From Chrysophaeum taylorii (lineage: Eukaryota; Sar; Pelagophyceae; Pelagomonadales; Pelagomonadaceae): 64,000 nt of DNA. This document shows, piece by piece, positions 24,725-48,477 of this stretch (position 1 is the stretch's first letter; each line of letters begins with the position of its first letter). The stretch spans positions 124,001-188,000 of the forward strand of contig JAQMWT010000314.1 of assembly GCA_029834535.1 (NCBI GenBank), written 5' to 3'. The position numbers and the translations under genes are program-made. Under the pieces are notes generated by a model that made no database searches, was not told the DNA's origin, and was given only the letters and a program-made list of their open reading frames with translations.

Positions 24725-24901
24725 AACACTTGGCGTCTGTCGTGCCACCAGACACGATGGCGTTATTAGTACTCGATCTGCACAACTCTATGACCAACGA
24801 TTTTAACTTGAGCGGCGAGGCTTTGCCGCCCGCGTTGAGCCCTGCAGACCGACCGTTCGACTATTATTTCCAAATCGATGAAACCACCCTTCGTCAGTCA
24901 C

Positions 24902-25123
24902 TAGAGAACAGTAATCACAACTGTGTTACCCTTCAGCAGAGCGGGAGAACAGTGGTAGTCTGTCCTCGAATCTGTCTTTTAATCGAGGACAGACAGCCGG
25001 TGTGAATAACACAGCGTTTTCTTTTTTTTTTTTTAAATCAAAGGTGGCAAAGTTAATTGAACTAACCCTAGAAGAGGGGGTACAAACTCTACTAGAGTCT
25101 CTAGTTCAGATTTTCTATCTCTA
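24902..25123 (-). repeat. 3' LTR of copia 1
   Basis: 222 bases beginning TAGAGAACAGTAATCACAAC and ending TTTCTATCTCTA on the plus strand. Matches the LTRs at 34528 (interrupted) and 42736. A poly-T run of 14 at about 25020-25034 is an expansion not present in the others. Confidence 0.9.
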
Positions 25124-25928
25124 CGCCCTCACAGATTGAATGCGGGGAGCGAAATCTGGATCAAACTAAGCAGGCAGCGTCTTACCATCGACAAGAATGT
25201 AGAGAGTGTTCTGGAGAGAGTCGTACGGTGGAAGAGTAGCCGAAAGAGCAACTTGATGTGATTGTGGGGAGGATGAAGTGGAGTGAACGCCGTAGGCGTT
25301 TTTGAACTTGTGAAACAAATTGCGTTGAAGGAGCTTCGAAAAATGATCAGCGACCTAGTAGAGAGTAGGACACTAGAAAGGTCTAATGATCGAATTAGCT
25401 TGGTAGTCACGAATGCGAAATTCTCGCAGGTTGATATGACGAGGTGGAGCACTTATATTAGGATGATTAGCGACATGTAGTGCGCTAGCGTTGTCAATAA
25501 GCAAGGGGACAGCGTGAGCTTGATCACACGAAAACAGATAGGGGTGGGAGGAGAAAAGTTTGTAGAACCAGTGACATTCATCAGCAGCTGCGCTGGCGGC
25601 GATGAGTTCAGCTTCCATGTTGCTCTTGGCAGTGAGAGTCTGGCGTTTGCTAGACCAAAATACGAGGTTGCCAAAGACGAATACACATACACCAGAATTG
25701 GATCGTAAGCGAGGGTCAGAACGATCAGCAAAGCTTGAATCAGCAAAACACATAATAGGTGAACGAAAATGATGCAGTTCAGGATAGTGAGCGATCAGAT
25801 GCTGAATAAAGGGGGTAATAGACGGGTTGTCGGATGAATAGTCAAGGGAGTCATTCGGAGTGCCCTTTAAATAGCGAAGTAACACATATATGTGCAGAAG
25901 GTGTGTTTGGTTGGGGTTGTGCATCCCT

Positions 25929-25943
25929 TTGCAACATTCGTTG
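25929..25943. repeat. Left target-site duplication of SINE copy 3
   Basis: TTGCAACATTCGTTG, repeated with one mismatch at 26316-26330 (TTGCAACATTTGTTG). The uninterrupted copia 2 has a single equivalent site near 43744-43758. Confidence 0.92.
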
Positions 25944-26315
25944 GTTGCGATGGAGGACGGCGCCTAACACGCTTGCTCCCTGCGGCGGCCCCGGCCGTCC
26001 CGGAGTGAGACGGTGCCTGCTCGCCTCCCGGGCTGGCCGGTTAGCACCCGGAAAGTCCGCGCTGGGATGGGGTTCGCTCGGTTGGGCAGAACGCGACGGA
26101 CAGGTCGATTATTCGTGGACCAACACGTCCGCGGCCTGCGACGCTTTTGCACGACCTCGCACAAGACCGCGCGCAGTGGCGGTCCACCATCAACAAGTCC
26201 GTCCTCGTCCGTCGCCGTGCCCCAACTGCGTGATTTTCCTCTGTGATTCCGCACCGGCTCCCGCCGGTCCGGCCTGGCTCCCATGCTCGGGAGAGGTCTG
26301 AAGTTAGTTCGTTAG
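25944..26315 (+). mobile_element. SINE-like element, copy 3 (longest)
   Basis: 372-base insertion in copia 1, exactly bounded by a 15-base target duplication. It starts GTTGCGATGGAGGACGGCGC and ends with an AGTTAGTTCGTTAG tail. The body matches copies at 14656 and 7168. Weak matches to RNA polymerase III internal boxes are present: TAGCACCCGG near 26042 and GGTTCGCTCGG at 26071-26081. These would suggest a tRNA-derived SINE, but the match is imperfect. Its orientation is opposite to the host copia. No protein coding. Confidence 0.88.
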
Positions 26316-26699
26316 TTGCAACATTTGTTGCACAAGGTGGTGATGTCCGGCCGACATGTGACAGACAAATAAATGCTGGTGCTACAATAGAAAGGGGAGT
26401 TTTTGCGTAATACATCTAAGGTAGTAGCCAAGTCTGAGAGAAGTTTAGTAGAAGGTTTTTGGACGAGGATGTCCGAATAGGTGACGTCTAGGCTCTGTAA
26501 GTTGAGCTTATACTCAGCAAGCAGCTTGTTGATCTTCGCTGCTACATTCATAGTGAGATGACCAGCGGAGACATTATATTGGACATCGATGCCTAGAAAG
26601 GATCGGATGTTGTCATGCCATGTACCCTTGCCATATTCGGTCTCCAGAGCGGTGCGAAGAGACGCAATATTGGCAGTGTTGGTACCAGTGATCAATAGG

Positions 26700-29600
26700 T
26701 CATCGACTGAAACGGATAGTAATACCCATTGGTTGATAGATCGACCCCAATTGATATAGAGACAGACAAGTATCGACTTGTGAGCGTTCGAACTCATGTT
26801 GTCGAAGAAATGAGTCGAGCTTAATATTCCACAACAAAGCTGACTGTTTGAGGCCATAGAGAGCCTTGACGAGTCGGAGAGCGAGCTTCGACTCTGGATG
26901 GTTCTTCTGTATCTGCTGGATAAGGTTTGGCGAGACACGTATTCCTCGAGGAAAGTCGATCCATATAGGGCGATCGAGTGCCGATTGGATGAATGCCTGA
27001 GGAATGTCCACGTGCGCGACCGCGAGCTTGTGCTTCACAGCGATGGCGAGCAATAACCGGTTGGTGGCGAGCATTGCGGTTGGTGAGGATGTGGCATAAA
27101 AGTCAATGCCTACACGTGCCAAGAAACCTCGGGCGACTAGACGAGCTTTGTAGCGGTCTGGATTGCCGTCAGCAAAATACTTGATCTTCAGCACGAGCTT
27201 CGTCGAGATAGACGAACGGTCTGGTGGTAAAGGCTCAAGCTTGAAGACACCATTGGAGCACAATCCTTCAATTTCCTCGCGACTCGAAGCGATATGCTTT
27301 AACTTATCTTCTTCGCTGAGTTCTTTGAGTTCGACATTCTTTTCAGGCTCATAGACAACATCTTCAGCGGTCACAAGTTGTAACACGACATGATCGATGT
27401 GCTGCAGATCATAGTCCATGACTTCTTGTAGAATGTCTTGATTCGGATCACTTTGACTTAGGAAGAGGTGTCCGAGTTCGCCAGAATCATGCATGAGGGC
27501 ATGCCTGTGACGAGAAGCTAGATGGTAGTGTTGATGCGCGGAGATGTCCCACAGAAGAGAGGAACCCATACAACAGAATTCTTGGTTCCATTGACGCGCA
27601 TAGAACTCTGCCGGTGACACTTCGTCATGGCGCATGTAGTTCTCGAGAACAGAATTGTCGTTATCAAGGTGGTCAACCAACACAGATGAGTGGTATGGCT
27701 TCCTGGGGAAGTCAACGTACAAGAGTTCCGCGTCGGTTTCTCTCTGCAAATCCAGTGCGGTGCCGCCCATGATACCATAGTCTTGTGTGGTACTTGCTAG
27801 GAGACATCCTTTCGGGACATCATTAGGTGGCTTAGCATCTCTTCGAATGTTGAGAGCAGAGGCGATGCTGGCGGCGTGGCCCTGGTGCAAAGCGCTGACA
27901 CTGATGAGGAACATCAATGTGCTGGACATGTTGGCTGTGGCGTGAGCCGTGGATTGCTCCTGCTGGTATTTCCAGTTGCGACCACACTCTGAGGCGATAA
28001 TGCGTCTGGTGAAGAGTTTTCCATCGTCAACACGTCTCACGATGTAGAGTTGATCCTTCGGGATGCGGAATCCACGTTCGTCATTGAGATCAGCTTTGAG
28101 TTTATCGCTCTGGTTGCGATGCACGAGAACTGGAGTAGAACCTGAATCGTCGAGAACAACCTCTAGGCGATCTTTTCCTTTGGGCATCGGAATGCTACCA
28201 TCCGGCGGAGGTGGCCGGTTGAGGAACGAAAAATCCTGTTCAGGTGTCGCGATGCGGATGGGACTAGAATCAGCAGCGGGAGTTGGATCCGGTTCTTTGT
28301 GTTCGGCGTCATCGCTAGGTTTATCATCGTGCTCGTCTTCGTGAGTCTCGCCCTCATTTTTTGATTCCTGTCTGACTTCCGGCATTTGCTGTTCGCTTAT
28401 AGCTGGTAGCGGGTCCTCTTGTCGTGCCTTTGTTGGGATCTGTGCGAGTACTTTGATCCGTGCGATCTCCTTGTTACGGTTGACGGGCATGTCTGCGTCG
28501 ACATGAAAGTCGTTAGAGGTGACGATTTTTCCATATCGCCCTTGATGTACAAGCAGGATAGAGCTGTGAACATCACGGATAAATCGGTCCGTACCGGGGA
28601 GGTTCGGGAGATAGTTGTTACTGTGGAAGTAAGAGGCGGAGACGCTGGAGGGTTCCAGTTTGTGACTTTGAGGGTAGACATGAGTGACAGGTTCGCCAAA
28701 GGGGATAAGCTTCAAGAGCGGTGCCGTGGGTGACATGATACGTCGGGGAACGGTGCATGGCATGTGTGTGCGCGAAGGCACACCGTGAGAGCGCTGGTTG
28801 TCGGCTTGGATCTTATGCAGGAGAGCAAATGGGTGATAATACTCAGCGGCAATAGACTTTCCTTTGATGCGTACACTGCGAAGGTTGAGGAGACGAACCA
28901 CGGTGCCTCGAGTGTTTTCTTTGATAGTGTTTTCAGCAAAGTTCCGCTGGTGGAGGTGGCGACCAAGGATTTGGAATTGGAGACCAAGCTGCACCTTGAG
29001 GGGGTGGAAAGCTTCAGAGCGAAGAGTTGAGAAGGCATCAGACGATATGATCTTCACATTGACATCGAATTCGACTTTAATCACATTGACCACATAGAGG
29101 ATGCCGGCCAGAACATCTTGGGCGTCTAATTTCCGTAGGAAATAGACCCATTTGTGTGCTGAGATGATACACACGAAGTGCATGATATAGCGAAATCCGC
29201 CGTGGCACTTGTGGATGCTCGGGTATGACACATCCATGTGGAGGTGTTGGCCAGGAGCAGAGGCCAGTTCATCCTGTGACCAGGAAGCGTTTTTGTGACT
29301 GAAGCTTACGTGCGATTGGCAGCGCTTGCATTCACTGCAGTCTTGCAGATACCGATCATCACCTGGGCGGAGATTCGTTACGTTAGCGGCAATCGTGCGG
29401 CGAAGAATCTCTGGTTGCTGGTGGTGTATGCAGTGCCAGCGAGTGACCAAAAGCACTCTTTTGGCGTGCTGAGTGGTGCCAGGCTGGTGCAAGGGAGGCA
29501 GAGCGGCAGTCCAAGCGCAGGGGGGGCTGGGTCGCTTGTCGACTCGGATTTTGGCAACGGTTGCCTCGGCAAGAAGCGTCTCGAGGTTTGTCGATTTGCT

Positions 29601-32267
29601 TGGTTTGTTTCGGATCGCATCATGGTGAACATCTGCAACGGCATTGAAGAGGGAGGTGAGGTTCAGGTCTTCTTTTGCTAGGAGACGGCTGGAGAAGGCC
29701 GAGAAGAATTCTGCAACCTGGTGGATGTCTCCAGGGCTGGGGATGCCATTGCGTATTGTAGCCCATTCGACGTGAAGGTTCACGTGGTGGTGCGATTCGT
29801 GGAATGCGAGGACATCGCTGTACTTTGCCTGCAACATGTGGTGCGGGACGGCGTTGGCCAGTGCCTTGAACGCGAAGTACGGCGGGTGCTGTTTGAATAG
29901 TCGGAGCAGTTCCGGGTCCGAGTGGTGTCCAAACTTTGCGATTTCGTTGAGGGTCGCATAGCGGATGTGGTCTGGAGAGATCAGCAGCAAGGCGTTGGAG
30001 TAGCTCGTGTTGGTGGGGTACGAGCCAGTGACCGAGTAGCACTTGGTGCTCTTCTGAAGCGTGTCTCCGATGTGGCCGACATAGTCCGCGTAAGTGGGAT
30101 GTGCTTTGGACATTACGAGTCCCTTGGGGTCATCGAGAGCAATTCGCCCTTGTGAGTCGATCGCGGAAAAGCCTGGATGCGAACGATTCATATAGTGGAC
30201 CCAAGTGGACGGGCGCGAACAGCTGTGAGCGGCGGCCAAGGATGTGGTGTAAGCGACGACCAGAAAGGCGGTGCCCTTGGGAACATCCAGGGAAAAGGAG
30301 TGCGTTGGGGAGAAGACTGCGGGTTGATGGGAACAGTCCAAAGTCTTAGGGCGCCTGGAATGGAGGGTGAGGGAGGCGCGCGGGAAGTAGCCACAGGCGA
30401 CGGCAGTAGCGGCGGTGCTGGTGATGGCTCCATCTGAATGGTAAGCACATTGGGACTCTGAGGCATGAAAACAGCGGATGGTGTTCCAAGCGGCGAGAGT
30501 GGGGTGTTGCGACAAATGGTTGTCCAGGAGCGTGAAAACCAGTAGGTTTGAAATGGACGCCATTGTGGCGTAGGGGGTGCCGTTGGCATCTAGACCGACG
30601 TCCGTGAAGGGCTTGGTGAGACGTGCGAGCATTTGGCAGATACGGGCATTCTTGGAAATCGAGAGTTTCGAGGCGTTGGCGGGCTTGTAGGAGTAGGTGG
30701 CCTTGTGCTGGTAGTAGTCCAATGTGGAACGGGACACTGTACCACGAAGGGCGGGTTTGGCGATCCAGAGATCGTCAGGATGGTGTGACTGGGATCCAGG
30801 AGAGGAACCATGCTCGGAGGCGAGGTTAACCAAGTAGAGGCGGTTTTCTCGAGGTTGTAGCCGGAGGGGGTGCCGGGCATGCACAGCGAGATAGCGTGTC
30901 TTGCTGATGACATCACCAAAAGCAGAGGCATTGTAGACGCCGGAGTGGCGGAAGTAGCCTAAGCGCTGATAACCTTTGGCGAGTTGAGCATACTCATGGT
31001 GAGTTCGGGGGTTGGGAGGTACGTTCTCGACAATGGCATAGGTCGGGAGCGTGCAACGAACGAAGCGGAGTTGTTCTTTGACGAAAAGGTCGGCGGTGAC
31101 CGGAGTGGCATAACCGTCGTAGTCTTTCATTACACTCAGATGTTGGCAGGGCAAAGTAAAAACTGCCAGGTCGAATGTAGGGAGTCGTAGTCTGGCGGTT
31201 TGGAGTGCGGCATTGAGTTTTCTGAGGTCCGCATAGTGCTTGGCATGCGGGAAGAGGTGGTGCGCACGGGTGCGCAGGATATCGTTGATTTCACAGGTGA
31301 CTACGACAGTTAGGCGTTTGTCGAATCGTTTGCGGAAAGTGTCGAAACCTTCCTGGTGGAGTCCACCTGCAATAATGGCGGTTTTGAGCAGAGGGGGTGG
31401 CGACTGCGCAGAGAGGTCTGCTGAGCCATTGAAGGTGTAGTGGACGACAGGAGATTGGATGTTGAGCACCTCGGTAAGATACATGGAATGATTTTGTAAC
31501 TTCGCGAAGTCAAGCGTGTGCGATTTTGAGCGTGTCTTTGCGACATGCTGTGTGATGTGTGCAATCTCATCTTGGAGTGACATTCGTTGCCTTATGTGAA
31601 AGCTGACCACAGTGGCGAATGTTTGCTTGGGGTGGGATGGCAGGGACAACAGGCCGTTAGGCTTGCGAGCGGCAAGTACGACGGCGGTCTTTCCTAGAAG
31701 TGTTGCGTAATTGTGGGGGTCTGAGGTTGAGGACTTTAAGAGCTCATAAAGGTAGGGGTCGTGGGGCAGTGGCGGGTCTGTTGCTTGTACATGCAGAGCT
31801 TTGAGCTGAGATGTGGCAATAACTTGAAGACTTTGTCCGAATTGCGGGACTACCATAAATACGAGATATAAAACGTAACCGGTCTTGTCTTTTGTATCCT
31901 TTGAAGAGAGACCTGCAGCCTGCAGATACAACGGTTTAACACCGATGAAGTGACTGGTAAGAGTCCCTCGGCCCATATGAATGGTGTGTTCGGGAATTCG
32001 GCGGATGGTCTCGGGAACAAAATTTTGAATTGTGCGCGTAAAGCAAAAAGATGCGCCACCGTCAATCAATGAGGTTTCAGTGCCGGGGCCATTGCATCCG
32101 TGCAGTGAGCTAGTCTTCTTTGAGGTCTTGTCTGGAGTGTAAGCTGCACAAAGAAAATCTGCGACTCGCGTGGAAATAGTCGATGAAGTCGGGAAATTCG
32201 TCATCTGGAGGTTTGGTGCCTGATGAAGTAAGGTGTGGTTGGCGGCACAGGCGTCGTCGGCAACCAT
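26700..32267 (-). CDS. Copia 1 Pol: protease, C5-methyltransferase-like, possible 2OG-dioxygenase-like, integrase, RT
   Basis: Uninterrupted 1855 codons. Protease-like site SLIDGGASF (Asp69). C5-methyltransferase-like block about 295-470: AIIAGGLHQEGFDTF (degenerate motif I), VTCEINDI and HLFPHAKHYADLRKL (II-III), DLAVFTLPCQHLSV with candidate catalytic Cys374 (IV, codon 31146-31148), AIVENVPPN (VI) and KTRYLAVHARH (VIII). Segment about 595-700 has HSD (610-612), PRASLTLHSRR, VPKGTAFLVVAY and His681, an arrangement that could be a 2-oxoglutarate/Fe(II) dioxygenase fold. Integrase: HHCC finger (HCIHH about 945, CSECKRC 977-983), core Asp1012, Asp1077, Glu1112. Copia RT from about 1674 (KARLVARGF, HVDIPQAFIQSALD, LVKALYGLKQS). 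The frame ends inside the RT; the rest is in +1. In the family, Pol is translated with Gag. Confidence 0.88.
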   Translation of the reverse strand: MVADDACAANHTLLHQAPNLQMTNFPTSSTISTRVADFLCAAYTPDKTSKKTSSLHGCNGPGTETSLIDGGASFCFTRTIQNFVPETIRRIPEHTIHMGRGTLTSHFIGVKPLYLQAAGLSSKDTKDKTGYVLYLVFMVVPQFGQSLQVIATSQLKALHVQATDPPLPHDPYLYELLKSSTSDPHNYATLLGKTAVVLAARKPNGLLSLPSHPKQTFATVVSFHIRQRMSLQDEIAHITQHVAKTRSKSHTLDFAKLQNHSMYLTEVLNIQSPVVHYTFNGSADLSAQSPPPLLKTAIIAGGLHQEGFDTFRKRFDKRLTVVVTCEINDILRTRAHHLFPHAKHYADLRKLNAALQTARLRLPTFDLAVFTLPCQHLSVMKDYDGYATPVTADLFVKEQLRFVRCTLPTYAIVENVPPNPRTHHEYAQLAKGYQRLGYFRHSGVYNASAFGDVISKTRYLAVHARHPLRLQPRENRLYLVNLASEHGSSPGSQSHHPDDLWIAKPALRGTVSRSTLDYYQHKATYSYKPANASKLSISKNARICQMLARLTKPFTDVGLDANGTPYATMASISNLLVFTLLDNHLSQHPTLAAWNTIRCFHASESQCAYHSDGAITSTAATAVACGYFPRASLTLHSRRPKTLDCSHQPAVFSPTHSFSLDVPKGTAFLVVAYTTSLAAAHSCSRPSTWVHYMNRSHPGFSAIDSQGRIALDDPKGLVMSKAHPTYADYVGHIGDTLQKSTKCYSVTGSYPTNTSYSNALLLISPDHIRYATLNEIAKFGHHSDPELLRLFKQHPPYFAFKALANAVPHHMLQAKYSDVLAFHESHHHVNLHVEWATIRNGIPSPGDIHQVAEFFSAFSSRLLAKEDLNLTSLFNAVADVHHDAIRNKPSKSTNLETLLAEATVAKIRVDKRPSPPCAWTAALPPLHQPGTTQHAKRVLLVTRWHCIHHQQPEILRRTIAANVTNLRPGDDRYLQDCSECKRCQSHVSFSHKNASWSQDELASAPGQHLHMDVSYPSIHKCHGGFRYIMHFVCIISAHKWVYFLRKLDAQDVLAGILYVVNVIKVEFDVNVKIISSDAFSTLRSEAFHPLKVQLGLQFQILGRHLHQRNFAENTIKENTRGTVVRLLNLRSVRIKGKSIAAEYYHPFALLHKIQADNQRSHGVPSRTHMPCTVPRRIMSPTAPLLKLIPFGEPVTHVYPQSHKLEPSSVSASYFHSNNYLPNLPGTDRFIRDVHSSILLVHQGRYGKIVTSNDFHVDADMPVNRNKEIARIKVLAQIPTKARQEDPLPAISEQQMPEVRQESKNEGETHEDEHDDKPSDDAEHKEPDPTPAADSSPIRIATPEQDFSFLNRPPPPDGSIPMPKGKDRLEVVLDDSGSTPVLVHRNQSDKLKADLNDERGFRIPKDQLYIVRRVDDGKLFTRRIIASECGRNWKYQQEQSTAHATANMSSTLMFLISVSALHQGHAASIASALNIRRDAKPPNDVPKGCLLASTTQDYGIMGGTALDLQRETDAELLYVDFPRKPYHSSVLVDHLDNDNSVLENYMRHDEVSPAEFYARQWNQEFCCMGSSLLWDISAHQHYHLASRHRHALMHDSGELGHLFLSQSDPNQDILQEVMDYDLQHIDHVVLQLVTAEDVVYEPEKNVELKELSEEDKLKHIASSREEIEGLCSNGVFKLEPLPPDRSSISTKLVLKIKYFADGNPDRYKARLVARGFLARVGIDFYATSSPTAMLATNRLLLAIAVKHKLAVAHVDIPQAFIQSALDRPIWIDFPRGIRVSPNLIQQIQKNHPESKLALRLVKALYGLKQSALLWNIKLDSFLRQHEFERSQVDTCLSLYQLGSIYQPMGITIRFSR

Positions 32268-32323
32268 CAGCGAAAAAGCCGACTCTGGTGGAGAGCACGC
32301 ATGTAGTCACTGTGACGTTTAGC

Positions 32324-34442: not shown

Positions 34443-34527
34443 TTTGCTTGGGTTCAGGAACGTCAGTGAGCGTGACTTGTTTGGAAATCCTGAGGCTCTG
34501 CTGATACCGGGACTGGTGCCCAGTACC

Positions 34528-34745
34528 TAGAGAACAGTAATCACAACTGTGTTACCCTTCAGCAGAGCGTGAGAACAGTGGTAGTCTGTCCTCGAATCTG
34601 TCTTTAAATGTCGACTGCTAAGAGGGGTGTGTGTGTGGGGAGCATGAAGGATGTGGGTGGGTTTGTGGGGAGCTGCAAAGACCTCGAATCTGTCTCTTAA
34701 TCGAGGACAGCCGGTGTGAATAACACAATGTTTTCTTAAATCAAA
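34528..34745 (-). repeat. 5' LTR of copia 1, inner part
   Basis: Starts TAGAGAACAGTAATCACAAC like the other LTRs. Relative to the 24902 LTR it contains an extra segment of about 80 bases (about 34606-34690: GTCGACTGCTAAGAGGGG, a TG run and GCATGAAGGATGTG). This segment is flanked by direct repeats of CCTCGAATCTGTCT. The same segment type occurs in Helitron copy 3 and at 50756. The LTR resumes after the Helitron at 36586-36654. Confidence 0.85.
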
Positions 34746-35756
34746 ACAAGTGCAGGCCAGTAAGTTCACCTAGTCCCAATCTCTAACCCGAGTAAGTTCA
34801 CCTGGTCCCAGTAAGTTTCAAAAAGTTCACCTGGTCAGTAAGTTCACCTAGCTCTAACCAACTCCTTTGAGCTCGTCGCTCTCGCCTCCGCCAATCTAAG
34901 CTGCTTTGGTCCGCACGCGCCGCCAACCTTTGAGTTTACTCTAAAAACCCTTTACTCTGAAAACCCCAGTATGTTCACCTGGTCCCAGTTTCACCTGGTC
35001 ACTCAGTCCACCTAGTCCCAATCTCAAACCCCAGTAAGTTCACGTGGTCCCAGTAAGTTCACCTATAGTGCGCGTGTAGACGCCGGGAGGGGGCTTATCG
35101 GTATTGCGCAGCACGTGTGGGGTAGGGTGGAGTCGTCGACCCAGATGAGTATATCCTCGGGGATGCCGATCGACAGAGAGCCACGTAGAGCTGGACGTGG
35201 CAGAAGACGGGCTTGGGAAAGAGGACGCCGACCTCGCGGGGCGTCTGGCCCTGGCTCTTGTTGATCGTTTGGCGTAGGCGGGCCTTAAGGGATACAGGTT
35301 CGAGGAGCCTCGGTGACACGACGCGATCGATGATGTATCTGGTGCCGTTGCAGAGGCCGTGCGACGGGTCGAGGTTGCGAAGACTTTAAGCTCGCGATCA
35401 AAGTCAGCATGCCGTTGGTTGTCAGGGAGTTGAAAACTCGACTGTAAAGAGCGAGGCGTCGTCTTCCGACCCAGCCTAGTCAGCCGAAAAGAACTCCGAC
35501 GCCTCGTCTCCGGGAAAAAAAGGCCGCGGTCATGCGCGCGTTGTCAGCATCGACAACATCGTTTCGACGGGACGTGAGAATGGCGCGCTGAAAGAGCCGC
35601 CGCGGGTCGTGGAAACAGTCTGCGAGGTCGCCGTAGACGGCTTGGAGGATCACTGTCTGGCTCTCACGTCTACCTGATCCTTACTATCGCGCCTACCTGA
35701 TCCTTACTCTCACGCCTACCTGATCTTTACCCTAAATCGAGGGACAGACAAGCACG

Positions 35757-36056: not shown

Positions 36057-36540
36057 CCCTCATACCCCACAAACCCACCCACATCCTTCATGCTCCCCAC
36101 ACACAACCCCCCCTCTTAGCAGTCGACATTTAAAGACAGACAAGCACGGACGTCACCCTTCGTCGCACATACGTCCGGCGGCAGCATGCGTACGACCTAC
36201 GGGCGGGGCCCGTCCTCTCTTCGCCTGCCCCACGCCTCGGCGATGACCCCGACTAGGTCCCGCGTACTTATCTCCGCCCGTCAGGCACATCCCTCATACC
36301 CCACGAACCCACCCACATCCTTCATGCTCCCCACACACACCCCCCTCTTAGCAGTCGACATTTAAAGACAGACAAACGTTTAAAGACAGACAAACAAACA
36401 CATCCTTCATGCTCCCCACACACACCCCCCTCTTAGCAGTCGACATTTAAAGACAGACAAACATTTAAAGACAGACAAACAAACACATCCTTCATGCTCC
36501 CCACACACACACCCCTCTTAGCAGTCGACATTTAAAGACA
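36057..36540. repeat. Tandem cassette CACATCCTTCATGC...CTTAGCAGTCGACATTTAAA
   Basis: Four imperfect copies of a 60-75 base cassette: CACATCCTTCATGCTCCCC, an AC-rich run, CCTCTTAGCAGTCGACATTT and AAAGACAGACAAAC. Related single copies lie in the copia 5' LTR (about 34606-34672) and at 50756-50830, both as reverse complements. Confidence 0.85.
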
Positions 36541-36585
36541 GACAAACAAACAAACAGACAAACATCTGTCGATTAGCAGTTAGGA

Positions 36586-36858: not shown

Positions 36859-38106
36859 CTAGCCACACCACGTCGCTGAGCACTGCTCGCAATGGGACTG
36901 ACTCTGCGCGCACCAGTTGTCCAAGGATGCGAACGACTGGCACGCGGCGCACGAATCTGCCACACCCGGTGGTGCATAAAAGCAGCACTCGCTTTGTGCT
37001 TGCGTTGGTGCCAGCGTAGGACGCGGCGTGGTCGGTGCGGTCGAGTACGTCGGTTTGGGGGAATATGTCGGCCGGGGATTGGGCGCCGCGGTCGCACCAC
37101 CACCTCCACACCACGTCGCCGAGCAGTGATCGCAATTGGACTGGCTCTGCGCGCACCAGTTGTCCGAGGGCGCAAAAGATTCGCACGCCGCACACACGTC
37201 CACCGAGGTTTGTGCGGGGTAGAAGCAGCACCCGCTTTGCGTTGGCTCCATAGTAGGGCGCAGCGTTGTTGGCGCTGGCGAGTACGTCGGCTTTGGAGAG
37301 GACGTCGGCGCCTCGGTCTCCCTGTAGTCGGGGTACTCGTCGTTGTCGAGGGGCTCGGTCCCCGAGAGCGCGACGAGCTCCTGGGGGCATTTGACGCGCC
37401 GAAAACGCACGTAGGGGTTGTCGGACTTGCCGTTTCGCGTCTTCCACGAGTACGACGACGAGTAACGCCACTCGCAGCCCGCCCGCAGCTCGCCCGGCAG
37501 ATCGGCACATCCCGACACGTCTTCGCAACCGCCGTAGTTGTTTCCGCAATCAAAGTCATCGATCTCGTACCCAGGAAACTGCATCGCGCACCCCGTCGTG
37601 AAGATTCCTTGGCCAGAGCCGGGAATCTGGAGATCGAACGAATGCGATCCCGAGACGTCGTGCCCAATATTCGTCACTTGAATGATGTGCTTCTTCCCCA
37701 CGATGTCGGGGTGCGCGCCGCCACCATACGAAAACTCCTCCGCAGTCCACCGGAGCTCGTAGCACTCGCCGCAATTCTCGTCTCCTTTAAGGCCGCTCGC
37801 GCCGCCAACGGCCGCGGCCGCGAAGCCCATCGTCACGCCCTCCTCCACATCAAACGGTTGGTGGTCGGCGCAGCTCGCTGCCGTGCCCCCATCGCACACG
37901 CTTGCGGTGTCGGGGTCATCGAGGGTGTTGCCGGTTTCGGCCTCGCAAGATCGAACAGGTCGTGTGACGGAACCCTTGCCAGACCATGAACAGGACGGCT
38001 TGCAACAGTCCCAGTACCCGGTCGTGTAGGTCCCCGTGGTCCACTGCGCGTCGTCGGCCGCCGCCGCGCGAAGCAAGGACATCATCATCATCATCTTGAA
38101 CATCAT
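36859..38106 (-). CDS. Secreted GH45-type endoglucanase with two C-terminal Cys-rich modules
   Basis: 415 residues. The N-terminus (MMFKMMMMMSLLRAAAA) is a likely signal peptide. The catalytic domain is about residues 22-245, with the glycoside hydrolase family 45 signature TTGYWDCCKPSCSW containing the base Asp33. The second conserved block SHSFDLQIPGSGQGIF contains the acid Asp158, so both catalytic Asp are in place, with many paired Cys. GH45 enzymes cleave beta-1,4-glucan by inversion outside the cell. Two Pro/Thr linkers follow, each leading to a 41-residue Cys-rich repeat (293-333 and 374-414: CCFY, DVCAACESF, DNWCAQSQSNCDHCSATWCG). These are probably carbohydrate- or wall-binding modules. 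The gene stands between two transposons. Catalytic call strong; substrate inferred. Confidence 0.88.
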   Translation of the reverse strand: MMFKMMMMMSLLRAAAADDAQWTTGTYTTGYWDCCKPSCSWSGKGSVTRPVRSCEAETGNTLDDPDTASVCDGGTAASCADHQPFDVEEGVTMGFAAAAVGGASGLKGDENCGECYELRWTAEEFSYGGGAHPDIVGKKHIIQVTNIGHDVSGSHSFDLQIPGSGQGIFTTGCAMQFPGYEIDDFDCGNNYGGCEDVSGCADLPGELRAGCEWRYSSSYSWKTRNGKSDNPYVRFRRVKCPQELVALSGTEPLDNDEYPDYRETEAPTSSPKPTYSPAPTTLRPTMEPTQSGCCFYPAQTSVDVCAACESFAPSDNWCAQSQSNCDHCSATWCGGGGATAAPNPRPTYSPKPTYSTAPTTPRPTLAPTQAQSECCFYAPPGVADSCAACQSFASLDNWCAQSQSHCEQCSATWCG

Positions 38107-42979: not shown

Positions 42980-45900
42980 CTAAGCAGGGAGCGTCTTACC
43001 ATCGACAAGAATGTAGAGAGTGTTCTGGACAGAGTCGTACGGTGGAAGAGTAGCCGAAAGAGCAACTTGATGTGACGGTGGTGAGGATGAAGTGGAGTGG
43101 ACGCCGTAGGCGTTTTTGAACTTGTGAAACAAGTTGCGTGGAAGGAGCTTCGAAAAATGATCAGCGATATGGTAGAGAGTAGGACACCAGAGAGGTCTAA
43201 TGATCGAATTAGCTTGGTAGTCTCGAATGCGAAATTCTCGTAAGTTGATATGACGAGAAGGAGCACTGACTTTAGGATGATTAGCGACATGTAGTGCGCT
43301 AGCGTTATCAATAAGCAATGGGATAGCGTGAGCTTGATCACACGAAAACAGATAGGGGTGAGATGAGAAAAGCTTGTAGAACCAGTGACATTCATCAGCG
43401 GCTGCGCTGGCGGCGATGAGTTCAGCTTCCATGGTGCTTTTGGCAGTAAGAGTTTGTCGTTTGCTAGACCAAAATACGAGACTGCCAAAGACGAATATAC
43501 ATGCACCAGAATTGGATCGTAAGCGAGGGTCAGAACGATCAGCAAAGCTGGCATCAGTAAAACAGATAATAGGTGAACGAAGGTGATGCAGTTCAGGATA
43601 CCGGGCGATCAGATGCTGAATAAAGGGGGTAATAGAGGGGCTGGCGGATGAATAATCGAGGGAGTCATTCGGAGTGCCCTTTAAGTAGCGAAGTAAAACA
43701 TATTAGTGCAGAAGGTGTGTTTGGTCGGGGTTGTGCATCCCCTTGCAGCATTTGTTGCACAAGGTGGAGATGTCAGGCCGACATGTGACAGACGAATAAA
43801 TGCTGGTGCCACAGTAGAAAGGGAAATTTTGGCGTAATACGTCTAAGGTAGTAGCCAAGTCTGAGAGAAGTTTAGTAGAAGGTTTTTGGGTGAGGATGTC
43901 CGAATAGGGGACGTCCAGACTATGTAGGTTGAGCTTATGCTCAGCAAGCATCTTGTTGATCTTCGCTGCGACATTCATAGTGAGATGACCAGCGGAGACA
44001 TTGTAGTGAACATCGATACCAAGAAAGGATCTGATGTTGTCATACCATGTACCTTTGCCATATTCAGTCTCCAGAGCGGTGCGAAGAGACGCAATTTTGG
44101 CAGTGTTGGTACCAGTGATCAATAGGTCATCGACTGAAACGGATAGTAATACCCATTTGTTGATAGATCGATCCCAATTGATATAGAGGCAAGTAAGTGT
44201 CGACTTGTGAGCGTTCGAACTCATGTTGTCGAAGAAGCGAGTCGAGTTTGATGTTCCACAACAAAGCTGACTGTTTGAGGCCATAGAGAGCCTTGACGAG
44301 TCGGAGAGCGAGCTTCGACTCTGGATGGTTCTTCTGCATCTGCTGGATAAGATTTGGCGAGACACGTATTCCTCGAGGAAAGTCGATCCATACTGGGCGA
44401 TCGAGTGCCGATTGGATGAATGCCTGAGGAATGTCCGCGTGCGCGACCGGGAGCTTGTGCTTCAAAGCGATGGCGAGCAGTAGCCATTTGGTAGCGAGCA
44501 TTGCGGTTGGGGAGGATGTGGCATAAAAGTCAATGCGTACGCGTGCCAAGAAACCTCGGGCGACTAGACGAGCTTTATAGCGGCCCGGAGTGCCATCAGC
44601 AAAATACTTGATCTTCAGCACGAGTTTCGTCGAGATAGACGAGCGGTCGGGCGGTAAAGGTTCCAGCTTGAAGACACCGTTGGAGCACAATCCTTCAATT
44701 TCATTGCGAATCGAAGCGATATGCTTTAACTTATCTTCTTCGCTGAGTCCTTTGAGTTCGACAATCTTTTCGGGCTCATAGACAATATCTTCGGCAGTCA
44801 CGAGCTGTAACACGACGTGATCGATGTGCTGCAAATCATAGTCCATGGCTTCTTGTAGAACATCTTGATTCGGATCACTTTGACGTAGAAAGAGGTGTCC
44901 GAGTTCGCCAGAATCATGCATGAAGGCATGCCTGTGACGAGAAGCTAGATGGTAGTGTTGATGCGCGGAGATGTCCCACAAAAGAGAGGAACCCATACAA
45001 CAGAATTCTTGGTTCCATTGACGCGCATAGTACTCTGCCGGTGACTGTTCGTCGTGGCAAACATAGTACAACACACAACAGAATTGTCGTTATCAAGGTG
45101 GTCAACCAATACAGATGAGTGGTATGGCTTCCTGGGGAAGTCAACATACAAGAGTTCTGCGTCGGTTTCTCTCTGCAAATCCAGTGCGGTGCCGCCCATG
45201 ATACCATAGTCTTGTGTGGTACTTGCCAGGAGACATCCTTTCGGGACATCATTAGGTGGCTTAGCATCTCTTCGAATGTTGAGAGCAGAGGCGATGCTGG
45301 CGGCGTGGCCCTGGTGCAAAGCGCTGACACTGATGAGGAACATCAATGTGCTGGACATGTTGGCTGTGGCGTGAGCCGTGGATTGCTCCTGCTGGTATTT
45401 CCAGTTGCGACCATACTCTGAGGCGATAATGCGTCTGGTGAAGAGCTTTCCATCGTCAACACGTCTCACGATGTAGAGTTGATCCTTCGGGATGCGGAAT
45501 CCACGTTCGTCATTGAGATCAGCTTTGAGTTTATCGCTCTGGTTGCGATGCACGAGAACTGGAGTAGAACCTGAATCGTCGAGAACAACCTCTAGGCGAT
45601 CTTTTCCTTTGGGCATCGGAATGCTACCATCCGGCGGAGGTGGCCGGTTGAGGAACGAAAAATCCTGTTCAGGTGTCGCGATGCGGATGGGACTAGAATC
45701 AGCAGCGGGAGTTGGATCCGGTTCTTTGTGTTCGGCGTCATCGCTAGGTTTATCATCGTGCTCGTCTTCGTGAGTCTCGCCCTCATTTTTTGATTCCTGT
45801 CTAACTTCCGGCATTCGCTGTTCGCTTATAGGTAGCGGGTCCTCTTGTCGTGCCTTTGTTGGGATCTGTGCGAGTGCTTTGATCCGTTCGATCTCCTTGG

Positions 45901-46173: not shown

Positions 46174-48477
46174 CAACAAAAATTTGCTGCAGCTTTAGGT
46201 TATGCTCATGAACGCCACCTGCTCCAGCTGAATAATCTTGGCTCATCCCGAGAAGCAATAGATACGGCTTACACCGTTACGCGAGTTCCTCTTCGTTTGG
46301 GGCCGCATCGCTCGGACACTCAGCCGTTGACTCTCGAGATGACGGCCGAGTTGCTCACGATGCCGGTGGACCATGATTGGGCTAGCTTGTCTAAGACAGA
46401 TTCGTTCAAACATTTAGCGTCTGTCGTCCCTCCAGACACTCTTGCGATTTTAGCAGTCGATCTGCACAACTCCGTGACCAGAGGTTTCCGCCAAAGTGGC
46501 GAAGTCCTGCCGACCGCGTTGAGCCCGACAGATCGATCCTTTGAGCAGTATTTGCGAATCTCCGACACCACCTTTCGTCACGTACAGATTCCGCTGTTAA
46601 ATGCGCGTACTCGTGTCGTTAAGTGGGTGTCAAAAGACGATCTCCAGGATCCCACTAAATGGGAACCGCCAGAAGTCCCTATGCTTCCGCTTCCAACAGA
46701 TGCGCCGGGGACGGCTCATGCTTTTTCGGCTGCCCCGCCCCCCCCCCGACAATCAAAAGTGGACGTTCCGCCGGATCCTGAACCTGAACAGGAGCCGAAA
46801 GTAAGGAGCGAGCCGAATGTGCGCGTCAAAGGCGATAAGATCAATAAGAGCCACCCCGAGGTGAGGTTCAAATACGAAGAAAAGTTCGATGTGCCATGGA
46901 AGGATGCGCCGCGCGATGCGGACGGTGTACCGTTACCGCAGACTCCCGAGCACGTCAAGGACAATGATGCGATGAAAGTCGTAATTCCGACGAAGGAAGA
47001 AGTCGAAAAGGTTGTTCGAGATCTGGGAATTCCCGACAACCTGCATCTGGATGATGATGCGAACATGATGTTGAGCCACTGCGTGCAATACGCGTGGGCT
47101 TTCTTTGATCCGATTATGAGACCCGTGGACTCGCCACCGGTTTCTCTACGATTTAAAGACGCAAACCCACGACCGATCAAGATGACGCCTTATAGGTTGA
47201 CGCCAGCAAAGCTCGAGTGTCTCAGAAAGCAGATCACTGAGTGGTATCGCGATGGAGTCATCCGACCGGCGAACTCTCCGTGGGGATTCCCTGTACTGAT
47301 GCTGCCTAAGAAGGGAGCAGAGGCCGGGACGTCGAATGCTTTTCGTGCTGCAGTTGACTTGCGTCCGCTCAGTGATCAGCTGGTCAATGACAGTTGGCCG
47401 AATATCCGTCAAGATGATACTTTGGCTTTTCTTGCCATGCGCCGTTGGCGGACGTGCATTGATATTCGATGGGGTTATCATAACCTACGTTTGGACGCCG
47501 CTGCTCAGGACGCCGTTACGATGGTTAGTCCACTTGGAGCCCATAGTTTCTTGCGCTTGCCTCTAGGAGTAAAAGCAGCAGGAGCTCTCTTTTGTGAGCA
47601 GATGGCTAGCGATTTGTCCACATGGATGTATAAGGACTGGGTCGCGTTTGTTGACGATATTATGATGGGATCGGATGAACTCCATCGACATTTACAAGTT
47701 TTGATTGAAGTGTTGTGCCATTTAGCACAGCGAGGATATAGTAGACGAACTTCGAAGTTCCACCTCCTCGAGCATGAAATCGATTTTTTGGGACATATTT
47801 CGACTGCGGAAGGCTTGAAGCCGAATCCCAAGACGTTAGAAGCGTTGCAGCAGATGCCGATTCCTGGTACGTTGCCCAATACGTACCCGAAGACCCAGAT
47901 TCGATCTTTCATTGGCATGAGCAACTATTGCCGCCGATATGTGAAGAATTATTCGAAGATTGTGGAGCCGCTTAGGCGATTGTGTCTTGAAGGCGTTAAG
48001 TTTGAGTGGACGCCTGAGTGCCAAAAGGCATGGGACACGATCATCGAAGCTTTGGTGGATTCTCGTGGAGTTTATCATCCTGACTACGATCTTCCTTTTC
48101 AGATCCGCTCGGATGCTTCCAAGGATGGTCTGGGCGCATATCTTTTTCAGGAAATCAAGGACGAAACCGGCAAGGTGACACGAGAGGAACGAGAAATTGA
48201 GTATTGGAGCCGAGCTGTGCCGAAAGAGATGCGGAACTATGAGCCTCGCCGGCTAGAGCTACTGGCAGTTATTCTTTCTCTTGAGCATTTCCGCTCTTAT
48301 ATCGAAGGTCACAAGACGATCCTTGAAGCAGATCATCGTAACTTCAGATCTCACCTTTCATGCTTCGTCTTAACCGGCAGCCTTTATTGCCAACCGATTA
48401 CACGATCATGGATCTTGATGTCCGCCGCTTACCGAAAACTCGCTCCGATGTTGTGGCAGAGACTCGCGAGAGGCTGA
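46174..48477 (+). pseudogene. Gypsy 2 reverse transcriptase and RNase H
   Basis: Open from the junction to 48477; first ATG in frame at 46297. A proline/acid linker (EPEQEPKVRSEPNVRVK) precedes the RT. RT blocks: WYRDGVIRPANSPWGFPVLM, AVDLRPLSDQL, TCIDIRWGYHNLRLD with catalytic Asp, FLRLPLGVKAAGALF, and the FVDDIMM box at about 47647-47667. The gypsy-typical IDFLGHISTAEGL and RSFIGMSNYCRRYVKNYS follow. RNase H begins with FQIRSDASKDGLGAYLF and continues to YEPRRLELLAVILSLEHFR. After LEADHRNFRSHLS the sequence departs from RNase H and the frame ends, so the RNase H tail and integrase core have been deleted. Parts up to that point look intact. Confidence 0.88.

Follow-up and report, generated by a model that had tools for sequence, protein, structure and literature searches.

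The 64,000-nucleotide window analysed here is part of contig JAQMWT010000314.1 (C314; positions 124,001 to 188,000) of Chrysophaeum taylorii, whose 70.8 Mb assembly in 697 contigs was judged eukaryotic by its genes (e.g. SAS-6). On the minus strand of this window lies an element that, by its domains and their order, is a long terminal repeat (LTR) retrotransposon of the Copia superfamily, and its Pol contains a stretch homologous to C5-cytosine methyltransferases (Table 1). At E ≤ 1 the 1855-residue open reading frame (ORF) of the element matches two Pfam families, the RVT_2 reverse transcriptase (RT; E 9.4e-28) and DNA_methylase (PF00145). The integrase motifs, recognized by eye at 28917-29339, lie upstream of the RT (27123-27155), which is the Copia gene order. 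Pfam rve has no match in the window ORF; two relatives discussed below, L045 and P0007, match it weakly and below the cut-off. The LTRs and short target duplications expected of such an element were read in other copies of its family, which we call F1. Twenty of these copies, chosen for their long open frames and for divergence, were taken at 9.9 kb; both LTRs were found in five of them (about 195 bp, starting with TAGAGA or nearly so, 91.8-97.5% alike), and 5-base target duplications were read by eye in L011, L012 and L027.

Table 1. Features of the methyltransferase-bearing Copia element, in window coordinates.
Feature	Position	Strand	Basis
C5-cytosine methyltransferase module, motifs I-X, between protease and integrase	29802..31388 (about)	-	PF00145, relatives' HMM, profile comparison
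Motif I	31344-31379	-	read in ORF
Motif II	31281-31298	-	read in ORF
HYADL	31224-31238	-	read in ORF
Motif IV, LPCQHLS, candidate catalytic Cys374 (ATG numbering)	31134..31154	-	P, C, Q, S kept in 32/32 rows
Motif VI, VENVPP	31014..31031	-	Glu in 31/32 rows; invariant in six-row alignment
Motif VIII-like, ISKTRYLAVHAR	30873..30908	-	Arg458 in 31/31 rows
Recognition-region stretch out of frame, residues 469-496 (28 residues)	30780..30863	-	window copy; 16 other aligned rows differ
Stretch of ~200 residues in recognition region without counterpart in relatives' profile	30081..30692	-	unaligned part of profile comparison
Motif IX, IRYATLNEIAKF	29931-29966	-	aligned with same region of public relatives
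Motif X, ALANAVPHHM	29835-29864	-	aligned with same region of public relatives
Long open frame: protease, methyltransferase, integrase, first RT part	26703..32306	-	ORF list, Pfam, three-frame translation
1855-residue ORF	26700-32267	-	ORF list
Protease active-site motif DGGAS	32049..32063	-	by eye; no Pfam match
Integrase, zinc-binding and D,D,E motifs	28887..29354	-	by eye
RT, RVT_2 profile positions 2-152 of 244; rest out of frame	26763..27251	-	Pfam, three-frame translation
Insertion of ~370 bases in RNase H part, flanks overlapping by 15 bases	~25943-26316		comparison with L009
RNase H-coding piece, separate frame, split by insertion	25376..25963	-	three-frame translation, comparison with L009; RNase H by eye
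3' LTR, ~190 bp	24901..25091	-	alignment to LTRs of other copies
Gag-like ORF, 525 residues	32865..34442	-	position and length only; no Pfam match above cut-off
5' LTR, 5' end missing, ~72-base dispersed repeat inserted	34526..34746	-	comparison with other LTRs

The initial annotation, made from the letters of the window, had proposed a methyltransferase-like domain on the strength of an ordered series of motifs, and this series is indeed present in the ORF at the positions given for it. A PF00145 match, the absence of which had been named as fatal to the proposal, covers residues 342-479 of the window ORF (motifs II-VIII) with 29.9 bits (E 4.9e-7; curated cut-off 22), and 14 of the 16 family rows tested also match at E ≤ 10. 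The proposed extent, 30858..31385, needs revision: motifs I-VIII do fall within it, but the domain does not end at 30858, since motifs IX and X follow at 29835-29966. These last motifs lie some 900 bases beyond motif VIII and align with the corresponding region of relatives in public databases, so that the whole module can be read as one enzyme with the complete order I-X. In the comparison of a profile of six F1 copies with one of the relatives' modules (E 2.3e-32, score 236; maximum among 100 shuffles, 23), the alignment runs through motifs I-VIII, leaves a gap of about 200 residues and resumes with the end of the recognition region and motifs IX and X. Motifs IX-X fall in segment 450-541 of the F1 copy L009; in the public relative P0007 the Pfam match extends over this region (profile positions 41-321 of 324), which it does not do in the window ORF. 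The reported LPC in motif IV, in place of the usual PPC, is correct and a minor deviation, M.HhaI (a weak match in the Protein Data Bank, PDB) having FPC.

Profile libraries of other kinds recognize the same stretch in sister copies of the family. The NCBIfam model dcm matches three of them (best 3.3e-11, short of the model's own 100.65-bit cut-off), as do PADLOC type II methyltransferase models (best 5.1e-9) and two PHROGs DNA methyltransferase families (best 6.2e-12). Searches of the PDB gave different results with different queries: with the window domain as a single sequence nothing was found, a 16-row profile gave two weak matches (E 0.15 and 0.2), both to C5-methyltransferases (M.HhaI, aligned from motif IV onward, and 8yf3, aligned from just past motif IV), and a six-row profile, built from four public relatives (one cut short) and two F1 copies, retrieved 35 distinct PDB sequences at E ≤ 10, 33 of them C5-methyltransferases and many of these variants of M.HhaI. 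Given the divergent motif I and the empty results of the single-sequence PDB search and of NCBIfam on the window ORF, one might imagine that there is no methyltransferase at all and that short motifs have come together by chance in a variable Pol linker. However, the curated Pfam score, the three sets of matches in sister copies and a profile that draws almost exclusively C5-methyltransferases from the PDB already contradict this idea, to which we attach practically no weight.

The element belongs to a numerous family. Searching the genome with the domain gave at least 151 matches (150 of 434 candidates scored), some of which are pieces of one copy; like all our genome counts, each based on about 150 scored candidates, this is a lower bound. 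For comparison we assembled 33 rows, consisting of the window copy, L009-L028, L003, L004, L006, L007 and L031-L038, the last eight being the best PF00145 matches; L001, L002, L005 and L008 were dropped as duplicates. Pro373, Cys374, Gln375 and Ser378 of motif IV are kept in all 32 rows with data, and the other key residues are nearly as constant: Asp347 (32/32), Glu326 (31/31), Glu414 and Asn415 (31/32 each) and Arg458 (31/31). The ratio of nonsynonymous to synonymous divergence (dN/dS; median of pairwise Nei-Gojobori values for pairs with dS of 0.1-1.5, the pairs being non-independent and the rows non-random) is 0.155 over pol codons 313-610, which comprise motifs I-VIII plus some of the recognition region (461 pairs), and 0.211 over codons 610-780 (367 pairs). 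Elsewhere in Pol the values are 0.187 for the protease region (458 pairs), 0.092 for the integrase (183), 0.217 for the linker (128), 0.145 for codons 1500-1680 (130) and 0.158 for the RT (72). Motifs I-VIII are thus under purifying selection similar to that on the RT, and the check proposed for the window, a search for other genomic copies with a conserved Cys374 and dN/dS below 1, has a positive outcome; the suggestion that selection keeps this methyltransferase-derived domain in the Copia Pol is supported.

Close pairs (dS<0.2) have a higher ratio, 0.258 for codons 313-610, as is expected for dead copies, and many copies, that of the window included, are broken. Such copies would suit a passenger, a host sequence caught by chance and carried without benefit. 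The selection result contradicts this: dN/dS for codons 313-610 remains near 0.15 even among pairs with dS ≥ 0.25 (0.149), and, as described below, both a deep RT clade and polyproteins of 2428-3361 residues that are uninterrupted have retained the module. We therefore regard a passenger as very improbable.

Two further Copia lineages of the same genome carry a similar module. F2, the abundant family of L045 (searched in two parts, with 150 of 839 and 150 of 960 candidates scored), has TSPCT, EMTPP and YQARERWILVA in the first part of the module and IRHYSTRELARANNF and IANAIPAGT ahead of the integrase. F3 consists of two loci, L046 and L048, with SAECT, EEMTPP and SRIRWFAF or SKIRWFAI; RT matches that are 43% identical to the F1 RT occur at the expected distance and on the expected strand, and we infer from this placement that they belong to the same elements. 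The copies of L045 and L048 examined have frame breaks inside the module, and the Pfam methylase model matches neither F2 nor F3. All three families match the profile of the public relatives (F1 E 2e-32, F2 2e-17, F3 1.2e-14; none of 100 shuffles reaches any of these values), and in direct comparison F1 with F3 and F2 with F3 are each unmatched by 150 shuffles. By these comparisons homologous modules are present in two additional Copia lineages, three in all. Direct homology of F1 and F2 found no significant support in either of two comparisons, and these two families are linked only via the relatives' profile.

The public relatives were found through the integrase-RT part of the polyprotein. 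Residues 1000-1950 of the L009 pol frame, used as query against 5.8 billion proteins, gave 7901 candidates, of which 393 proteins have E ≤ 1e-5, and the best 120 of these form the sample examined; the methyltransferase part alone, or the 16-row alignment, retrieved no relatives as a protein query. In precomputed annotation P0001, P0007, P0008 and P0009 combine PF00145 with RVT_2, and the PF00145 match is over the cut-off in P0001, P0007 and P0009. A profile of four modules (P0001, P0007, P0009, P0011), their ends set by eye as in all public relatives, detects the module in P0008, P0010, P0012 and P0013 with E 3e-47 or better. A seven-module hidden Markov model (HMM) finds, outside its own members, P0013, the motif IX-X part of L045 (1.6e-16) and L009, whose module it covers over its full length (residues 307-836, E 1.2e-54). 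In total eight of the best 120 integrase-RT relatives have the module, and the other 112 match at E 0.4 or worse or not at all; among the latter, P0002-P0006 begin at or just before the integrase, so that the presence of a module in them cannot be judged. Four of the carriers (P0001, P0007, P0009, P0011) are proteins without interruption, 2428-3361 residues long. No relative was confirmed in the viral contigs searched.

An RT tree places the carriers together. It comprises 39 rows, namely 10 carriers, the five unjudged sequences and 24 others drawn from the remaining 107 of 122 RT sequences (the F3 RT is not among them), and the carriers and unjudged rows form one clade (support 100/97, branch 0.85) apart from the 24 others, with the warnings that the bootstrap was unsettled (0.986) and the L045 branch long. 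The simplest reading of this topology is a single capture of the methyltransferase before these lineages split. As the module also occurs in the relatives' public sequences, the capture looks old and maintained by selection rather than accidental.

The class of the enzyme (METHYLTRANSFERASE) was judged with the six-row profile, by PDB profile score only. The ranking is headed by M.HhaI (1.3e-9), followed by M.HaeIII, DNMT2 types (from 1.7e-8) and DNMT1 types (from 8.8e-5), while none of the 35 PDB sequences at E ≤ 10 is a DNMT3 by name, a few of them carrying general names only. M.HhaI and M.HaeIII share the motif order and are the best matches, but they are stand-alone bacterial type II enzymes of low sequence identity to the module, and the likeness of class is one of score. 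Within the genome there are at least 57 PF00145 matches (123 scored). The two best, L029 and L030, we take to be DNMT2-like and DNMT5-like, respectively, by their motifs; the other loci compared, part of the 57, coincide with F1 places. By score the enzyme of the element looks unlike DNMT3 and unlike these two loci. A host DNMT as donor was also considered and rejected: BLASTP of the element domain against L029 and against L030 gave no significant match.

DNMT2 acts on tRNA, and enzymes of the DNMT2/tRNA methyltransferase kind rank among the best matches in the PDB (9hgm, 1.7e-8; 1g55, 1.9e-8), which could mean that an active enzyme methylates RNA, either the genomic RNA of the element or its tRNA primer, and so protects or licenses the packaged RNA. 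Methylation of RNA was raised by de Mendoza et al. for LINE-borne enzymes (PMC5890265; here and below, statements on published work refer to the passages available). On the other hand, the DNA enzymes M.HhaI and M.HaeIII score slightly better, and the module is a neighbor of the integrase within Pol instead of occupying a Gag or ORF1 position; we consider an RNA substrate unlikely.

Motifs VIII and IX enclose the recognition region. In F1 (L009 pol segment 246-449) and at the same place in P0001 it contains long stretches that show no visible likeness, and it is shorter in P0007, P0009 and P0011; to judge from these alignments, recognition regions seem to expand or to be exchanged between lineages. 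Pol residues 610-740 had suggested to the eye a second domain, an AlkB-like 2OG-Fe(II) oxygenase. This candidate was rejected: hhalign gave a probability of 0.1% against six AlkB-like sequences of the genome (the element alignment being very shallow), Pfam has no match there, and the supposed first His of the iron ligands is Gln in 6 of 32 rows. The stretch is recognition region.

The long lineage-specific stretch in the recognition region would also fit a catalytically dead scaffold that binds nucleic acid or flips bases, its fold being kept for the handling of DNA by the RT and integrase. The same can be said of the Met or Leu in place of the Asn of motif VI in F2, F3 and the relatives read, of the loss of the motif IV Pro in F3 and P0007, and of the poor motif VIII (SKTR). 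However, a pure scaffold need not keep the catalytic residues, and in the six-row alignment the Cys of motif IV, the Glu of motif VI, a preceding Gly-Asp and the Arg of motif VIII are all invariant, Cys, Glu and Arg being retained in 31-32 F1 rows as well. We think this explanation improbable, to about the same degree as an RNA substrate.

The window copy itself is decayed, as is evident from the frame break in its RT, the insertion in its RNase H part, the out-of-frame recognition stretch and the truncated 5' LTR, while the methyltransferase motifs themselves are intact. The remainder of the RT is read in another frame at 26315-27034, the change occurring after about pol residue 1848. With these breaks the "uninterrupted 1855-codon copia Pol" of the initial annotation holds for the ORF as such, which exists, but not for Pol, since the ORF reaches only position 152 of the 244 in RVT_2. 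A peptide read in the RNase H insertion, TNFRPLPSMGARPDR, recurs in L047, and the insertion is therefore likely to be a short mobile element, with a duplication of 15 bases. The dispersed repeat of about 72-85 bases that interrupts the 5' LTR (34597-34670) is found again in the window at 36065-36542, in tandem at 36.3-36.6 kb, and in loci L014, L026 and L030. Adjoining the element, a 415-residue ORF (36859-38106, minus strand) matches glycosyl hydrolase family 45 (1.9e-45). Farther along are an F1-family RT remnant (43874-44696, minus strand; C314:167874-168696), 93-94% identical in two pieces, whose ORF at 43703-44365 is an RVT_2 fragment slightly under the cut-off, and a Gypsy-type RT-RNase H ORF (46297-48477, plus strand).

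The explanation we favor, with a probability of roughly one half, is that of a Copia element whose Pol-borne C5-methyltransferase was captured once, at the base of the clade, has been kept ever since and methylates new element DNA as a mark of self. The protease would cut Pol, made as a single precursor, and the methyltransferase, freed from Pol or active within it, would be in the particle beside the RT and integrase. There it could methylate cytosines in freshly synthesized element DNA, ahead of integration or during it, and the copy would thus arrive in the genome already marked as self. The benefit might alternatively be protection against cytosine editing or against being recognized as bare DNA. 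Activity and a role in self-methylation are suggested here by the anatomy of the element and by the published DIRS enzymes, the SymbioDIRS-Dnmt3 domains, which methylate CG de novo in yeast; in the same system the LINE and Gypsy enzymes gave no methylation, a result called inconclusive by the authors (PMC5890265). A more far-reaching version is tentative and in our opinion somewhat doubtful: that the capture of one prokaryote-like (not DNMT3) enzyme founded the Copia clade, that the enzyme has since been an obligatory, active and self-methylating part of Pol, and that the event was independent of the captures by LINE, DIRS and Gypsy elements.

A number of our results weigh against the favored explanation. 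Some lineages may be inactive, given that EM or EL replaces the EN of motif VI in F2, F3 and the public relatives read and that motif IV reads AEC in F3 and TC in P0007. The unjudged rows lie among the carriers in the RT tree; should they be without a module, the tree would call for a loss or a second gain. The residue counts come from rows picked for long open frames or best PF00145 matches and hence favor intact motifs. Over codons 780-1000, which include motifs IX-X, dN/dS is higher than over motifs I-VIII (0.261, 302 pairs; 0.203 at dS ≥ 0.25). The direct F1-F2 comparison is not significant (reached by 42 of 150 shuffles), nor is that of F1 with L045, and NCBIfam has no methyltransferase match in the window ORF. 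Finally, the CpG data point both ways. On the side of self-methylation, the observed/expected ratio of CpG is 1.00 in the element vs 1.23-1.29 in the flanks, with TpG and CpA at 1.15 and 1.12 vs 0.95-0.96 and 0.87-0.89, but coding sequence and flanks are unmatched controls. Over 123 non-independent pairs of close copies, C/T differences are only slightly more frequent before G (0.084) than before T (0.079), C (0.075) or A (0.066). Those of the G/A type are likewise a little more frequent following C (0.064) than following A (0.061). A clear CpG mutation footprint is accordingly rejected in favor of a slight excess. In favor of the explanation, five MBD matches and one SRA match in the genome imply that readers of 5-methylcytosine (5mC) may exist. 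At G000:C594:63354-64520 (plus strand), matches to 2OG-FeII_Oxy_2 (AlkB-like) and SAD_SRA are adjacent, each in an open frame of 909 residues; judging from these matches, the locus possibly encodes a 5mC reader fused to an enzyme of demethylase type.

Retrotransposons with methyltransferases have been described before. A close counterpart is KnitGypsy-Dnmt3 of Klebsormidium nitens, which also has a C5-methyltransferase in the Pol ORF of an LTR element, with key residues kept and Ka/Ks (its ratio of nonsynonymous to synonymous change) below 0.2; it differs in being a Gypsy element, in its Dnmt3 class and in having been described in one host lineage (PMC5890265). SymbioDIRS-Dnmt3 and SymbioLINE-Dnmt of Symbiodinium are similar in their hundreds of copies, their age and their purifying selection, but they are DIRS and LINE elements, with the LINE enzymes in ORF1, and the Copia elements of Symbiodinium are without a DNMT (PMC5890265). 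A later paper (Mol Biol Evol 2025, PMC12344493) names LTR Copia and DIRS as elements in which some DNMT3 members are embedded, with de Mendoza 2018 as its source. As the cited work describes Gypsy, DIRS and LINE carriers, "LTR Copia" could be an error; the available passages of PMC12344493 describe no Copia element, and the carriers are stated to be DNMT3, whereas the window enzyme is unlike DNMT3 by score. The available text of a paper on accessory domains has cytosine methyltransferases in Gypsy and DIRS and does not contain the word Copia (PMC6338049), and that of a survey of microeukaryotic DNMTs has no retrotransposon-borne enzyme (PMC9998398). Gypsy elements of Phalaenopsis orchids have likewise captured a nucleic-acid-modifying enzyme, in their case a 2-ODD/AlkB RNA demethylase in a separate ORF, and the same study, a screen of 121 angiosperm genomes, reports its 15 extra domains from Gypsy elements and not from Copia (PMC9289625). 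In the passages available to us from the open-access PMC literature, a body of text without subscription papers and preprints, we met with no account of such a Copia clade.

The published captures that we found belong to LINE, DIRS and Gypsy elements, with enzymes of the Dnmt3 class in DIRS and Gypsy, and what appears to be new is a Copia clade with an enzyme that is not DNMT3-like by score. A deep Copia clade with such a different-looking enzyme, low dN/dS and a fixed Cys would make methyltransferase capture a recurrent solution across the types of retroelement. Moreover, the natural variants of the module (EN, EM or EL in motif VI; PC, EC or TC in motif IV) would allow one to test whether self-methylation is what selection keeps.

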